Of a stretch of DNA of 64,000 bases, positions 47,284 to 53,765 are shown in pieces. The notes below the pieces were generated by a model. It did not search any database, was not told the DNA's origin, and saw only the letters and a program-made list of their open reading frames with translations. The DNA is taken from the NCBI RefSeq assembly GCF_004005845.1, contig NZ_SADE01000004.1, positions 1 to 64,000 on the forward strand, given 5' to 3'. The first letter of the stretch is position 1, and each line of letters starts with the position of its first letter. The stretch comes from Hwanghaeella grinnelliae (GTDB taxonomy: Bacteria > Pseudomonadota > Alphaproteobacteria > UBA8366 > Aestuariispiraceae). Position numbers and translations under genes: made by a program.

Positions 47284-48378
47284 ATGGGCGGCAAGGCGGT
47301 GGACAGACGCGGTTTTCTGGCGGGGATGGCCGGGTTCTCCTTACTGGCGGTTTCCCCGGCCTTGGCCGATACGGGGCGTCGCATGGCCTTCATTTGCGCG
47401 ATGAAAGACAGGGAAGGCTACGGCGTTGCGGCGCTTTCCGCGTCCGGAGAAATTCTGCGCCGGGAACCCCTACCGGATCGGGCGCATGGTGCCGCCATTT
47501 CACCCGACGGTGAAACAGCGGTCATCCTTGCGCGGCGACCCGGACGGTATCTCGGCGTGATGGATTTGACGGGGCGCATGCCTTTCAAGATTAGGCCGCC
47601 GCGCCCGGACCGTTTGTTTTATGGGCATGGCTTTTTTTCGGCCGACGGAAAGCTGTTCTACGCGACGGAGAACGATTTCAAGAACGAAGCCGGCGTCCTT
47701 GGCGTCTACGACACAGCAGACGGTTTCAATCGGGTTGGCGAGCTTTCGTCCGGTGGCGTGGGGCCGCATGAAGCTATTCTTATGCGGGACGGAAATACGG
47801 CTGTTGTCGCGAATGGTGGGATCATCACGCACCCAGACTATCCGCGCGAAGAATTAAACTTGCCCACGATGGACTCGACCCTGGCTTATATCGACCTTGC
47901 TTCCCAAAAAGTGACGGCGGTTCAGCGTTTGCCGAAGGAACTTTATCAGATGTCGTTCCGGCATTTGGCTGAAGATGCGCATGGCACGGTGTGGATTGGC
48001 GGCCAGTACCACGGTTCGCCTGCCGATGTCGTTCCCATGGTTTTTGTTTCAAGGTTTGCGACAGGTGTGCGCGCCTTGTCGGCACCCGATGCGGTATTCC
48101 GGAATATGCGCCATTATGTCGGATCGGTTGCCGTGGATGCCGGTCATGGTCGGGTCGCGACCACATGTCCGCGCGGCGGCGTCTGGCAGGTTTGGGATTC
48201 CGCGAACCAGAACTTGATAGCAGAACGGCGGGTAATCGACATCTGCGGTGTGGCAGCCGGCCGGGAGGGCTTTGTTGCGGTAGATGGTTTGGGGAATTTT
48301 AGGGAGGGAGAAACTGTACTCTCCGCGCACCGTTCCGTGGCCTGGGACAACCACTTATTATCATTAAATAATATATAG
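47284..48378 (+). CDS. DUF1513 family beta-propeller-like periplasmic protein
   Basis: 364 residues, starting 1 nt after the second imelysin stop. The N-terminus MGGKAVDRRGFLAGMAGFSLL carries a twin-arginine-like RRGFL motif and ends at ALA, so it may be Tat exported. The body has repeated blades (HGAAISPDGETAVILARRPG; HGFFSADGKLFYATEND; GPHEAILMRDGNTAVVANGG) and ends with SVAWDNHLL. DUF1513 proteins accompany imelysins and DUF1111 proteins; function unknown. Confidence 0.87.
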   Translation: MGGKAVDRRGFLAGMAGFSLLAVSPALADTGRRMAFICAMKDREGYGVAALSASGEILRREPLPDRAHGAAISPDGETAVILARRPGRYLGVMDLTGRMPFKIRPPRPDRLFYGHGFFSADGKLFYATENDFKNEAGVLGVYDTADGFNRVGELSSGGVGPHEAILMRDGNTAVVANGGIITHPDYPREELNLPTMDSTLAYIDLASQKVTAVQRLPKELYQMSFRHLAEDAHGTVWIGGQYHGSPADVVPMVFVSRFATGVRALSAPDAVFRNMRHYVGSVAVDAGHGRVATTCPRGGVWQVWDSANQNLIAERRVIDICGVAAGREGFVAVDGLGNFREGETVLSAHRSVAWDNHLLSLNNI

Positions 48379-48413
48379 TTTGAGAACGACACGCATTTCC
48401 AAAAATCTAATGA

Positions 48414-48430
48414 TTGCGAATAGTTAGCAA
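48414..48430. promoter_or_regulatory. weak iron-box-like repeat upstream of bfr
   Basis: TTGCGAATAGTTAGCAA has TTGC/GCAA ends and an imperfect centre, and the TAATGAT just before it extends the likeness to a Fur site. It lies about 120 nt upstream of bacterioferritin. Weak match. Confidence 0.3.
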
Positions 48431-48550
48431 CTACTCTTCTTTCGTTCCGGACCAATTTCCGATATATAAACATCGTTGCGCGACGGAGCCGGAGCTTGCT
48501 TGATAAAGGTGACGGGCGCGCCACTCACCAACACAAAAAAAGGTGAAGAT

Positions 48551-49033
48551 ATGAAAGGCGACAAGGAAGTACTTAAACACCTGAACGGGATCCTCAAGAA
48601 CGAGCTGACCGCCATCAACCAGTATTTCCTGCATGCGCGGATGCTGAAGGATTGGGGTTACAAGAATCTTGCAGATACGGTTTATCACGAATCGATTGGC
48701 GAGATGAAACACGCCGACATGCTGATCGACCGCATCCTGATGCTGGACGGGCTTCCCAACCTGCAGGATCTGGGTAAGTTGAAGATCGGTCAGAATGTGC
48801 CGGAAATGTTCGAAGCGGACTTAGCGCTGGAAGAGACGAATCAGGGACAGCTAAAAACCGCCATCGTCAAATGCGAGGAAAAGCGGGACTTCGTGTCGCG
48901 TGAAATTTTCGAGAAGATACTGGACGATACCGAAGAACATATCGACTGGATCGAAACGCAGCAGCATCTTATTAGCCAGACCGGCCTGCCGAATTACTTG
49001 CAAGAGCATATGTTCGAGAAAGACGCCAGTTAG
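48551..49033 (+). CDS. bfr: bacterioferritin
   Basis: 160 residues from ATG 48551 (GGTGAAGAT upstream). Starts with the family's [12 protein letters not shown]. Haem ligand Met52 and ferroxidase residues Glu18, Glu51, His54, Glu94 and His130 are in register with E. coli Bfr by ungapped count. The position of Glu127 is Thr (DDTEEH), with Glu128 next to it. Forms a 24-mer that stores ferric iron. Faces bfd, which helps release it. Confidence 0.95.
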
Positions 49034-49547: not shown

Positions 49548-51080
49548 TCAGTGACCGGGCGGGTGTGTGTTTTCAGGTTTCATCGGGTAGGCGGCGGGCA
49601 AGAGAACCAAGCCCAGAGCGGTCAGTCCCCCGATCACCAGCCAAGCCTCGTTTACCGCCAAGACCAGTCCGGCTTTTTCGAACATCGGCCGCACGAATGA
49701 CATCATCTCCGGTGACAAAGCCGTGCCGTCGGATGGCACCATATCCAGCGGGATGCCGACGAAATTGGCGGCTTCCGGATCTTTCGCAAGAACGCGATCA
49801 CCAAGCGCCGAGGCATGATGTGGGGCACGTTGCCAAAGGATCGTATCGACCAGTGCAATCCCGATGGCGCCACCTAGATTCCGCATCAGGTTGAACAAGG
49901 CGCTTCCGTCGGGGACGTCTTCCGCGCGCAACAGGCCCAGCGCCAGGCGGGTCGGTGGCAGCAGGCAAAACATGATCGACACACCGCGGACGATTTGTGG
50001 CCAGAACATCTCGTCGAAATCGGTGGCGGTGGTTTGAAAGCCGCTCATCCCCAAGCCAATCGCGAAACCGACAAAGCCGATGAGGCTGAGAAGCCGTGGG
50101 TCGATCCTCCGCTCTAACTGTACGGCAATGGGGGCCGTCGCCAGCTGCGCGGCGCCGGTCACCAGCATAGTCAGCCCGATCTCCAGCGGTGAGTGGCCGC
50201 GAACAAGACCCAGGAAGACCGGCATCAAATAGACTGAGGCGAATAGCCCGATACCGAACAGAAAGCTCAGACCGCAGGCGACCGCGAAGTTCCGGTCCGC
50301 GAATAGTCGCAGCCTGGCGACAGGCGTTGCGGCTGCCAGACTGCGCGCGATGAAGCCGCCGGCGGCCAGGACCGATGCGATGAGTAGGACAAGAACCGGT
50401 ATCGCCGTCCATCCGTCGGACGGCCCATCCTTCAAACCGATTTCCAGACAGGTAAGACTGACTGCCAGCAGGATAACGGCGGCCCAATCCAACCGTGACA
50501 AAAGGCTCAAGCGCGTTTCCTCGCGCGGGACGGTCATTGCCGCGATGGCCAGGGCCGCAATGCCCGGCACGATGTTTACCAGAAACAGCCAGGACCAGTC
50601 GAAAGTGTCGGTGATATAGCCGCCGACCGTCGGTCCGATGGTTGGGGCCAGAACCGCGAGACCACCGGCTATGGTGGTCGCCATCGCCTGTTTCTTTTCC
50701 GGGAACAACAGAAAGACGGCTGAAAATACCAGTGGGATCAGGCAGCCGCCGGAAAATCCCTGTATGGTTCTGGCAATGATCAGCAGCTCGAACCCGTAAG
50801 AATAGGCGCAGCCGACCGATGCCAGAAGAAAGACCGAGAGGGATATCAGGAATATCCCCCGCAAGCCAAAGCTGCGGGTCAGAAACCCGGTAAGGGGAAT
50901 CGCGATGACCTCAGCGATGAGATAGGCGGTTTGAACCCAACTCATCTGCTCGTTGGGGATATCCAGCGCGGCGCTGATCGCCGGCAGGGATGTTACAACG
51001 ATTTGAATATCAAGGATCGCCATGAACATGCCGAGGCACATGGCGATGAACCCAATCCAGCGGGCGGAGTTTTGGAGCAT
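49548..51080 (-). CDS. MFS drug exporter, DHA2 (EmrB/QacA) family
   Basis: 510 residues with 14 hydrophobic helices. The DHA2 signatures are visible: LDIQIVVTSLPAISAAL in helix 1, WVQTAYLIAEVIAIPLTGFL, and GPTVGGYITDTFDWSWLFLVNIVPG (motif C in helix 5). Exports hydrophobic or cationic compounds in exchange for protons. No EmrA-like membrane-fusion gene adjoins it, so it may act alone. TTTGGAG precedes the ATG. Confidence 0.92.
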   Translation of the reverse strand: MLQNSARWIGFIAMCLGMFMAILDIQIVVTSLPAISAALDIPNEQMSWVQTAYLIAEVIAIPLTGFLTRSFGLRGIFLISLSVFLLASVGCAYSYGFELLIIARTIQGFSGGCLIPLVFSAVFLLFPEKKQAMATTIAGGLAVLAPTIGPTVGGYITDTFDWSWLFLVNIVPGIAALAIAAMTVPREETRLSLLSRLDWAAVILLAVSLTCLEIGLKDGPSDGWTAIPVLVLLIASVLAAGGFIARSLAAATPVARLRLFADRNFAVACGLSFLFGIGLFASVYLMPVFLGLVRGHSPLEIGLTMLVTGAAQLATAPIAVQLERRIDPRLLSLIGFVGFAIGLGMSGFQTTATDFDEMFWPQIVRGVSIMFCLLPPTRLALGLLRAEDVPDGSALFNLMRNLGGAIGIALVDTILWQRAPHHASALGDRVLAKDPEAANFVGIPLDMVPSDGTALSPEMMSFVRPMFEKAGLVLAVNEAWLVIGGLTALGLVLLPAAYPMKPENTHPPGH

Positions 51081-51281
51081 GACGGCCTTACGCCTTACGA
51101 CTGTGAGGAATTGGGGTGCGATTGATTAGCACAGGAGTCGCCCCGGTGCGCTATTCGGACTTTTCATGAGGGCTTTCGGGGTATCCAATGCAACTCATCC
51201 GTTACGGTGATTTTCGGTGGCGCCCAGGCCGCCGACTGCGCCGGGTTGTTTTGCCATATATCTCTCCGGGGACTTCCTGCC

Positions 51282-52385
51282 ATGTCACCACGCGCACATC
51301 CACATCTGCTCGACCTACCGATCCTGCCGATCGGAGAAAGTTCCGTGCCTGGAGCCAAGCGGATTGTTCCGTTGGCTAACAACGAAGCGACAGAGCCGCC
51401 TTCGGCCGCCGCGCAGGAAGCGGCCAGGAAAGCGATGGCGGGTGCGAATTTTTATCCCAGCGTAACGCATGCTGAACTTAAAAGCGCGATAGGCGCGGCC
51501 TATGGGGTCGATCCGGCCAAAGTGGTCTGCGGCAATGGGTCAAGTGAGATTATAGCACTCCTGGCGCAGGCTTATGCCGGGCTGGGCGATGAAGTAATCA
51601 TCGGCCGCCACGGCTATCTGTATTTTTCGATCTGTGCGCGAATGGCAGGCGCTGCACCGGTCTATGCGGTTTCCGCCGGCAATGCCAATCACCTCAGTTT
51701 CGGATTGCAGGCGGCCTTGGATGCGGTGACGCCCAAGACCCGGATCGTGTTCCTGGACAATCCCTGCAATCCCTTGGGCACCTATGTGTCCCGCAATGAT
51801 TTGAGGACTTTCCGGGACAAGTTGCCGGAGGATGTGCTGCTGGTTATCGACGGTGCATATGCTGACTATGCTACGGCCGATGATTTCGACCCGGGCGACG
51901 ATTTGGTGCTGGCCGGCGAGAACACGGTCGTCTTGCGAACCTTTTCCAAGATATACGGCCTTGCGGGGTTGCGGGTCGGATGGGCCCATGCGCCGGCATC
52001 GGTGGAAGAAGTTCTGAACAAGGTGATGCGGCCGGGTAATCTTTCCAGCGTGTCACTCGCGGCAAGCGAAGCGGCGGCCAAGGAACAAGCCCTTGTCGTG
52101 AACCGACGGAAGAGGAACCAACTGGCGCGCGATGCTTTCGCGGCATCGCTTGAAGCCGATCTGGGATTCACGGTCTTGCCGAGCCAGGCGAATTTCCTAT
52201 TGGTCACACCACCGCCAAATGCACCGATGGATGCATCGGCCCTATACGAGGGATTGATGGCGGAAGGCGTCCTGGTCCGGCAAATGGGGCCGTACCAATT
52301 GCCGGATAGTTTACGGATCAGTGTTGGCACGGACGAAGAGATGAATATCGCCCTGGCAGCGATCAAAATGTTGGAGGCAGCATGA
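51282..52385 (+). CDS. hisC: HisC-like PLP aminotransferase
   Basis: 367 residues from ATG 51282; upstream in-frame ATG 51207 is not HisC-like. Fold-type I class-I/II enzyme: LANNEATEPPS near the start, VVCGNGSSEIIALLA (PLP phosphate site), FLDNPCNPLGTYVS, VIDGAYADYA, and the Schiff-base lysine in TFSKIYGLAGLRVGWA. Histidinol-phosphate or aromatic amino-acid transaminase are both possible; no other his genes are nearby. Overlaps the next gene by ATGA, tying the two functionally. Confidence 0.85.
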   Translation: MSPRAHPHLLDLPILPIGESSVPGAKRIVPLANNEATEPPSAAAQEAARKAMAGANFYPSVTHAELKSAIGAAYGVDPAKVVCGNGSSEIIALLAQAYAGLGDEVIIGRHGYLYFSICARMAGAAPVYAVSAGNANHLSFGLQAALDAVTPKTRIVFLDNPCNPLGTYVSRNDLRTFRDKLPEDVLLVIDGAYADYATADDFDPGDDLVLAGENTVVLRTFSKIYGLAGLRVGWAHAPASVEEVLNKVMRPGNLSSVSLAASEAAAKEQALVVNRRKRNQLARDAFAASLEADLGFTVLPSQANFLLVTPPPNAPMDASALYEGLMAEGVLVRQMGPYQLPDSLRISVGTDEEMNIALAAIKMLEAA

Positions 52386-53530
52386 GCGGACCAAAACAGG
52401 CTTCGAACGAAAACGCTGCCCCCGGCGCAAGCCGAAGCGGCGCTTTGCCGAACCCGGATATGACGGAAGCGGCAGAGGTCGTGCTGCCCTGCGCGGATTT
52501 CGACGCATGTCTGGAATTTTATCGGCACGAACTTGGTTTCAAGATCGAAACCATCTATCCGGCGGACAAGCCGACAACGGCGATCGTTTTCGGCCATGGT
52601 GTCCGGTTGCGGCTGGAGCGTAGCGCGGAGCCTGCCGCGGTCACTTTGCGCCTGACGAGTACCGATCCAGCCTTCAAGGCGCCGGTCGATGTCACCGCGC
52701 CGAACGGTGCGCGGATCATCATCGCGCCGAAGGACAAAGGTTATATCCTACCGCCCATCGACCAATCCTTCGTCTTTCAACCGATCGGCGAGGAGCCGGA
52801 TTGGGGGGCGGGGCGCGCCGGGATGCTATACCGCGACCTGATACCGAACCGGCAGGGCGGCCGGTTCATTGCCTCTCACATTCAAATTCCGACCGGGGGG
52901 CCTGTTCCCGACTACGTGCATTTCCACAAGGTCCGGTTTCAGATGATCTACTGCAAGGCAGGCTGGGTCCGGCTTGCTTATGAAGACCAGGGCGAACCCT
53001 TCATCATGAAAGCGGGGGACTGCGTCTTGCAGCCGCCGGAAATCAGACACCGGGTACTGGAATGTTCGGACGGGTTGGAAGTCGTCGAAATCGGCTGTCC
53101 GGCGGAACATCCGACCATGGTTGATCACGCAATGACCTTGCCGACGGGCAAACTGGACCCGGACAGGGACTTCAACGGACAGCTTTTTGTCCGTCACGAC
53201 GCGGGAAAAGCGACTTGGCATCCATGGCGCTTCGATGGTTTTGAGTATCGTGATCTTGGGATTGAGGCTGCGACACATGGCCTGGCGCGGGTTCGCGTTG
53301 CCAAGGCCGTGGGCCTAACGGATGCCAAAGGGAAAACGGCATTCCATACCGGAGAATTCCTGTTCCTGTTCGCGCTATCCGGTCATGGATCGCTGTCGGT
53401 TGAGGGGGAGGGCGTGTTCAAACTGTCACCCGGCGACTCGACCGTCATTCCGGCGGAGACGCCGTTCAGCGTCAACAGCGACAGCGATGGATTGGAACTG
53501 CTGGAAATCGGAATTCCTGCCGAAGACTGA
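52382..53530 (+). CDS. glyoxalase-like/double-cupin fusion protein
   Basis: 382 residues. Domain order: a vicinal-oxygen-chelate (glyoxalase/bleomycin-resistance) domain at about 30-115 (VLPCADFDACLEFYRHELGFKI), a cupin at about 155-245 with metal-ligand candidates YVHFHKV and PEIRHRV, and a second cupin at about 285-380 with GHGSLSVEGE and LSPGDSTVIPAETPF but few histidines, so probably not metal-bound. No signal peptide. Coupled to the HisC-like gene. The likely role is a small-molecule conversion, substrate unknown. Confidence 0.8.
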   Translation: MSGPKQASNENAAPGASRSGALPNPDMTEAAEVVLPCADFDACLEFYRHELGFKIETIYPADKPTTAIVFGHGVRLRLERSAEPAAVTLRLTSTDPAFKAPVDVTAPNGARIIIAPKDKGYILPPIDQSFVFQPIGEEPDWGAGRAGMLYRDLIPNRQGGRFIASHIQIPTGGPVPDYVHFHKVRFQMIYCKAGWVRLAYEDQGEPFIMKAGDCVLQPPEIRHRVLECSDGLEVVEIGCPAEHPTMVDHAMTLPTGKLDPDRDFNGQLFVRHDAGKATWHPWRFDGFEYRDLGIEAATHGLARVRVAKAVGLTDAKGKTAFHTGEFLFLFALSGHGSLSVEGEGVFKLSPGDSTVIPAETPFSVNSDSDGLELLEIGIPAED

Positions 53531-53765
53531 CCAACCGGGACGGTGTGTGACGTATTGAAACGGGGTTGTCCGCCTCCGATTTATCGGGAAGGGCGAAAAA
53601 TCCCGAATAACGCTGCTGGTATGCGGTTTGCAGTCGGATATGCTAGTGAAAGCAAACGTGTCGTGGCTATACTGTAGCAAGTCGTGGCGGAGGTGATGCT
53701 CCGCCGCGGGTTTTCTGATTCCGGCCGCAAATTGTCGCGCCAGTGGAACTGATGGAACGGATCGA

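Follow-up and report, generated by a model that had tools for sequence, protein, structure and literature searches.

A bacterial VOC-bicupin fusion protein as a candidate metal-dependent oxygenase associated with kynureninase

Our analyses point to a widespread family of bacterial proteins, in which a shortened VOC (glyoxalase-like) domain is fused to two cupin domains, as putative metal-dependent oxygenases acting next to kynureninase, a reading that we advance tentatively and with somewhat less than even confidence, since the metal, the chemistry and the substrate are all predicted. The member studied here is encoded in a window (the whole stretch of DNA analysed, 64,000 nucleotides of contig NZ_SADE01000004.1 of Hwanghaeella grinnelliae) immediately downstream of a gene for a HisC-like aminotransferase. 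The wider evidence suggests that kynureninase, rather than this aminotransferase, is the partner of the family. The tryptophan breakdown pathway feeds NAD, anthranilate and signalling molecules, and with the tie to kynureninase a hitherto anonymous protein becomes a candidate, open to testing, for a step missing from tryptophan breakdown.

Table 1. Features of the fusion gene and of its immediate surroundings (window positions).
Feature	Position	Strand	Remarks
HisC-like class I aminotransferase	51282..52385	+	Aminotran_1_2 192 bits; TIGR01141 245 bits
ATGA stop-start overlap	52382..52385	+	ATG of the fusion and TGA of the upstream frame
Three-domain fusion protein	52382..53530	+	ATG start, 382 aa
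Shortened VOC/glyoxalase-like domain	52469..52741	+	residues 30-120; helix absent from second half-module; without conserved His
Cupin 1, predicted active	52811..53122	+	residues 144-247; conserved H180, H182, Q187, H223
Cupin 1 residue codons		+	H180 52919-52921; H182 52925-52927; Q187 52940-52942; H223 53048-53050
Cupin 2, predicted structural	53240..53524	+	residues 287-381; without conserved metal set
Terminator-like hairpin, weak	53682..53709	+	between the fusion and the next gene

The extent, strand and length of the fusion's open reading frame were as originally predicted, and the ATGA link to the aminotransferase was likewise recovered (Table 1), an overlap suggestive of translational coupling between the two genes. 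The listed open reading frame of the aminotransferase begins at a GTG at position 51207, which is probably too early, the alternative ATG at 51282 (giving 367 aa) being the more likely start. Four terminator-like hairpins were observed in the region against 2.9 expected, and the site downstream of the fusion is therefore weak. That the pair lies far from histidine genes, as also proposed originally, was examined on the seven proteins scanned around it. A gene for a DHA2/EmrB-type MFS transporter (374.8 bits; window positions 49548-51080) is divergent from the aminotransferase-fusion pair, and MFS-type genes are also close to the fusion in loci L035, L043 and L072 (by eye) and L154-L157 (annotated). 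At window positions 47284-49033, a DUF1513 protein (335.8 bits) adjoins a bacterioferritin (240.7 bits), possibly forming an iron-related pair.

By Pfam cut-off and by fold (Z 23.4), the fusion is a member of the cupin superfamily. Two stretches match Cupin_2 (58.7 bits, cut-off 27.2), and a match at E<=0.01 recurs in all 43 aligned relatives. The glyoxalase family PF00903 matches residues 33-77 below its threshold (17.1 vs 20.6 bits) and reaches E<=0.01 in 15 of the 43 relatives. The VOC/glyoxalase fold is defined by two beta-alpha-beta-beta-beta modules; an AlphaFold2 model of the fusion based on the 43-sequence alignment had a mean pLDDT of 93.2, and in the N-terminal region modelled alone (pLDDT 91.3) the second half-module of the VOC part was devoid of its helix. 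Among the 50 Foldseek matches listed for the N-terminal model, at E values of 4e-06 and above, were entries of the FosA, FosB, glyoxalase and bleomycin-resistance types, all of which we take to be VOC folds. Because VOC-type entries top these matches, the predicted combination of a glyoxalase domain with a double cupin stands, the former probably as a shortened, one-helix VOC domain. VOC proteins carry a metal-binding His/Glu set, missing in some members. It is absent from the fusion, whose VOC part has no conserved His and varies at positions 32 and 79; D62, which is D or E in 43/43 relatives, may serve another role.

The expectation that one cupin would look active and the other structural was borne out in the alignment, where H180, H182, Q187 and H223 of cupin 1 are invariant in 43/43 relatives, and cupin 2 retains H322 (39/43) as its only usual ligand, with no metal set. 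On average, the commonest residue accounts for a share of 0.837 at positions of cupin 1, against 0.604 for the VOC part and 0.553 for cupin 2. Judged from these residues, cupin 1 is predicted to be able to hold a metal. When residues 126-382 were used in a fold search, quercetin 2,3-dioxygenases came first (1gqh, rmsd 3.0 over 248 residues, 13% identity, with the Z of 23.4 given above), many other bicupins, non-oxidative ones included, following within a few Z units; families missing from this list were not counted as excluded. A review (PMC4019311) gives a 3-His-1-carboxylate motif for quercetinases, lists ring-cleaving enzymes of related aromatics and, for salicylate dioxygenase, locates a 3-His site in the N-terminal cupin. 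The fusion has Gln at the quercetinase carboxylate (Glu) position in 43/43 relatives, and hence no 3-His-1-carboxylate site; like salicylate dioxygenase, it does carry three His in its N-terminal cupin. Together with the fold, and by analogy with that enzyme as described in the same review, these three His would be consistent with dioxygenase chemistry. The invariant Gln in place of the usual Glu ligand could also belong to a non-oxidative enzyme of the same pathway (isomerase, hydrolase or lyase) employing the metal as a Lewis acid, and DUF861 bicupins and ureidoglycine aminohydrolase stand behind the quercetinases in the fold search (1sfn, Z 21.3; 4e2q, Z 20.1). We consider such an enzyme decidedly unlikely, as the best fold group is that of quercetinases, though fold does not decide chemistry, and as there is a dioxygenase with a 3-His site in its N-terminal cupin (PMC4019311). 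In the oxygenase reading that we prefer, cupin 1 would bind Fe(II) or a similar ion and use O2 in a dioxygenase-type reaction. Its substrate would be a small metabolite from the tryptophan-kynurenine-anthranilate branch, and the step would immediately precede or follow that of kynureninase. The VOC domain and cupin 2 might contribute to the form of the pocket or of the oligomer.

A scan of genome contigs yielded 461 stretches encoding a relative of the fusion (E<=1e-3), the best 80 of which were kept. The match runs from residue 34 or earlier to residue 360 or later in 79 of these best 80, a proportion biased toward full-length proteins by the selection itself, and only L088, truncated where its contig ends, departs from this. 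According to their record titles, the best 80 of the 461 loci belong to Pseudomonadota, Actinomycetota, Chloroflexota, Bacteroidota, Acidobacteriota, Planctomycetota, Myxococcota, SAR324 and others, most of them being draft MAGs whose taxon titles may be wrong. L058, titled Mesoflavibacter (Bacteroidota), has kynureninase coordinates identical to those of G011 from the window's family, so that the taxon given in its title is probably incorrect. The fusion was found (E<=1e-40) in 13 of the 289 genomes of a class sample, taken at even spacing from a larger set. Second, truncated copies without the VOC part occur shortly downstream of the fusion in two loci (L040:10404-11018 and L046:9212-9814) and look like decaying duplicates. 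Beyond general cupin and AraC-binding domains, no named enzyme family was matched over cut-off in Pfam and NCBIfam; nor did the Pfam, NCBIfam and PDB matches provide a specific family name. In four plasmid records the fusion is annotated merely as 'cupin domain-containing protein'. Among the titles and abstract openings listed in searches of the PMC open-licence literature, we noticed no paper on the family and nothing joining kynureninase with that annotation.

The aminotransferase of the window scores about 245 bits against TIGR01141, below the cut-off of 276.55 for the HisC equivalog. The same model matches 12 places in the genome at E<=1e-15, one of which, on another contig, exceeds the cut-off (302 bits). 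Since the neighbour falls below the cut-off while another genomic copy passes it, it is best regarded as a HisC-type paralog. The same gene order and ATGA overlap are found in the genus-mate G001 (L037 at 5044), whose fusion is split over two contig ends, L088 being part of G001 and the aminotransferase lying on the other contig. The two aminotransferases share 61% identity, and the two fusions 47% in the N-terminal part and 63% in the rest; retention of the overlap in spite of this divergence agrees with a conserved translational coupling, as first proposed. In the loci scanned outside the genus no HisC-like neighbour was found, and the pairing was rejected as a family-wide rule. Among 82 loci (the 80 kept relatives, the window and L033), many of which end early at contig ends and some of which have short flanks, a HisC-like open reading frame (E 1e-10) was detected in the window only. 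No aminotransferase homolog (E 1e-8) was near the fusion in G007, G009, G010 and G011, genomes of the same family with flanks of about 7.5-10 kb, three of which are also among the 82 loci. In a search of 97 loci with eight PLP-enzyme seeds, the HisC seed gave the best match in the window alone. Relatives with non-adjacent genes, which the original prediction had itself named as evidence against it, thus do exist, and coupling fails as a general rule. Because the pairing does not generalise, the proposal that both proteins act on the same or successive substrates becomes a claim on one genus.

The two proteins might nevertheless form a dedicated two-step pair resembling BacB/BacF, processing an amino acid via its keto acid, as the ATGA link shared by the window's genome and its genus-mate, the presence of BacB among the fold matches (3h9a, Z 20.3) and the other PLP enzymes found near the fusion elsewhere would allow. 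Class I, III and V PLP enzymes do lie near the fusion in several lineages among the 97 loci, some on the opposite strand, and in L154 and L155 a class V enzyme precedes the fusion by about 120 bp in the same orientation. However, in the loci scanned a HisC-like neighbour was seen only within the genus, the opposite strand carries the class V enzymes of L097 and L108 as well as the class I enzymes found in five Woeseiaceae loci, all at a distance of 1.4-1.6 kb, and the fold score of BacB is tied with those of unrelated bicupins, so we hold a dedicated pair to be very unlikely. Under the preferred kynureninase-associated reading, a plausible substrate for the co-translated HisC-like aminotransferase of this genus would be some amino or keto acid from that branch.

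Kynureninase was scored with TIGR01814 (E<=1e-30), and HgmA, of tyrosine catabolism, was used as a control gene. In the 289-genome class sample, kynureninase was present in 13/13 fusion genomes vs 41/276 others (Fisher p 9e-11), while HgmA was present in 7/13 vs 28/276 (p 2e-4), and since the control is also enriched, part of the kynureninase signal reflects lifestyle. The association survives when the genomes are split by HgmA, kynureninase occurring in 7/7 genomes with the fusion vs 13/28 without it when HgmA is present (p 0.012), and in 6/6 vs 28/248 when it is absent (p 4e-06). These class counts ignore kinship beyond the HgmA split, the 13 fusion genomes being spread over seven families. 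Of 50 fusion genomes selected by way of the 80 loci, 46 likewise had a kynureninase (42 over cut-off). This set overlaps the other samples (G354=G075, G357=G202, G340=G011 and G346=G010, by identical kynureninase coordinates). Kynureninase was absent from the remaining four (G325, G342, G355 and G368) and was found in 2/14 control genomes. Among 39 relatives, 5/6 genomes with the fusion carry kynureninase vs 5/33 without it (p 0.002), and in genus g5 the figures are 3/3 vs 0/3 (p 0.1). The genus-mate G001, assembled in 360 contigs, has the fusion and gave no kynureninase match. The converse fails, as 41 class genomes possess kynureninase without the fusion. In the window's genome, kynureninase is encoded on another contig (G000:C2:476826-477989) and not beside the fusion, and for this reason it was invisible to the original prediction.

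Adjacency provides a second line of evidence. When neighbours of the fusion were clustered, with antisense reading frames and generic ABC ATPases set aside, the largest cluster (11 loci) consisted of kynureninases plus two related class V enzymes of other identity (L097, 90.1 bits, and L108). Removal of four duplicates from the 97 loci left 93 distinct ones, and in 11 of these the fusion has a kynureninase no more than 6.5 kb away, against about 0.3 expected under a model of one copy per 4 Mb genome and 13 kb visible per locus; within that distance it is absent from the other 82. Six of the 11 adjacent loci represent one Rhodospirillaceae-type lineage and two are Dehalococcoidia. On a quick tree, adjacency requires 5 changes, at least 3 of them forced by well-supported branches. 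Kynureninase is on the same strand at 51 bp in L044, at 61 bp in L070 and adjacent in L141, and divergent at 115 bp in L115; the two adjacent kynureninases scored on NCBIfam passed TIGR01814 (306 and 324 bits). The class V neighbours in Paraburkholderia bear no more than a distant resemblance to kynureninase (63.7 and 57.6 bits vs 246.4), as does that of L097. In the Dehalococcoidia locus L044, an acyl-CoA-dehydrogenase-like gene (by eye; L044:6141-7373) directly follows the fusion and kynureninase, and its product could be a flavin monooxygenase. The surroundings of kynureninase itself were compared between 29 loci of fusion genomes, some of which are represented twice or by close relatives, and 20 other loci; transport genes were commoner in the former set, with a LivM-like gene in 6/29 vs 1/20 and a binding protein in 6/29 vs 0/20, both named by eye, and nothing in this comparison named the step of the fusion. 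Branched-chain-type ABC transport genes are near kynureninase in L148, L150, L176 and other loci of fusion genomes.

Taken together, co-occurrence and adjacency suggest a kynurenine-pathway role for the fusion. The link might instead be indirect, both genes marking metabolically versatile genomes in which the fusion acts on something else, for instance another aromatic compound or a product of nucleoside breakdown, and the enrichment of the HgmA control, as well as the diversity of gene contexts, can be read in this way. In several neighbourhoods, whose genes were delimited by a home-made chooser of open reading frames and named by eye, the fusion is surrounded by genes that look like those of nucleoside salvage (L134, L142 and L143) or precedes phenylacetate-type genes (L138). 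In L134 it overlaps a cytidine-deaminase-like gene by four bases, and the salvage-like surroundings hint at another substrate in the lineages of L134, L142 and L143. In addition, a PF04199 cyclase adjoins the fusion in L144 (Dongia-type genus g55), two Paraburkholderia plasmids present an M20 peptidase, an MFS protein and a class V PLP enzyme followed by the fusion, and a 2OG-Fe(II) oxygenase lies 3-75 bp after it in L051, L060, L062 and L068 (Pfam check on L060). These contexts away from kynureninase keep another substrate possible. An indirect link appears rather unlikely, however, because the kynureninase association is complete in the class sample and persists after the HgmA split, and because lifestyle does not explain repeated adjacency above chance.

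If the fusion does act next to kynureninase, it might replace a known enzyme of the pathway, and this was assessed in 80 genomes (13 class genomes with the fusion, 41 class genomes with kynureninase only, and 26 other fusion genomes). Tryptophan dioxygenase was present in 9/13, 35/41 and 24/26 of these groups, respectively, and a general replacement of that enzyme was rejected, only 6/39 fusion genomes being devoid of it. For 3-hydroxyanthranilate dioxygenase the corresponding figures were 5/13, 9/41 and 14/26, and its replacement is unsupported given that both proteins occur together in 5/13. KynB (TIGR03035, E<=1e-20) showed no clear pattern (3/13, 7/41 and 8/26), and PRK08255, which is over cut-off in 7/13 class fusion genomes including that of the window, no clear exclusion. 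As no tested enzyme is consistently absent, the fusion does not simply take the place of any of them. Kynureninase, tryptophan dioxygenase and PRK08255 are all present in the window's genome, which gave no match to 3-hydroxyanthranilate dioxygenase or TIGR03035. Six genomes (G075, G202, G299, G294, G329 and G330) combine kynureninase and the fusion with no match to tryptophan dioxygenase, 3-hydroxyanthranilate dioxygenase or PRK08255, and four of the 41 kynureninase-only genomes (G131, G144, G168 and G322) are similar, with neither dioxygenase and only partial PRK08255 matches. A more specific proposal, possible in our view and held with distinctly limited confidence, is that the fusion performs an unrecognised bacterial step of tryptophan-kynurenine metabolism, as a heme-free VOC-bicupin oxygenase either supplying the substrate of kynureninase or consuming its product. 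If true, such a step would matter most in the same six genomes.

Several characterized systems resemble the fusion in part. BacB is paired with the aminotransferase BacF in bacilysin synthesis and possesses two metal sites. Both BacB and AerE (Z 19.7 for the latter) are bicupins like the fusion, which differs in its VOC domain and in the fact that no aminotransferase partner is conserved across its family. The cupin dioxygenase acting downstream of kynureninase is 3-hydroxyanthranilate 3,4-dioxygenase (PF06052). The fusion is distinct from it, as PF06052 was matched neither by the window protein (E<=0.1) nor by the 43 aligned members (E<=0.01), and both families coexist in the five class fusion genomes mentioned above. 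Quercetin 2,3-dioxygenases (1gqh, 1y3t) share the bicupin fold over residues 126-382, and the fungal enzyme holds its metal in the N-terminal cupin only, whereas the fusion is 13-16% identical to them, has Gln for Glu and an extra VOC domain, and was seen in no flavonoid context. The gentisate and salicylate 1,2-dioxygenases (2phd and 3bu7; Z 19.9 and 19.4) are also bicupins, and the 3-His site of the salicylate enzyme in its N-terminal cupin (PMC4019311) is like that of the fusion; at 13-14% identity, however, they lack its VOC domain and invariant Gln, their family is absent among its Pfam and NCBIfam matches, and its recurrent neighbour is kynureninase and not gentisate genes. The closest solved relative by sequence is 2o8q (residues 145-247; E 1.2e-15, or 3.4e-23 with a profile), of which the part of PMC3765361 available to us makes no mention. 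Unlike the fusion, it is a single cupin of 134 aa, deposited as a hypothetical protein, yet the HxH...Q...H arrangement is common to both in the alignment.
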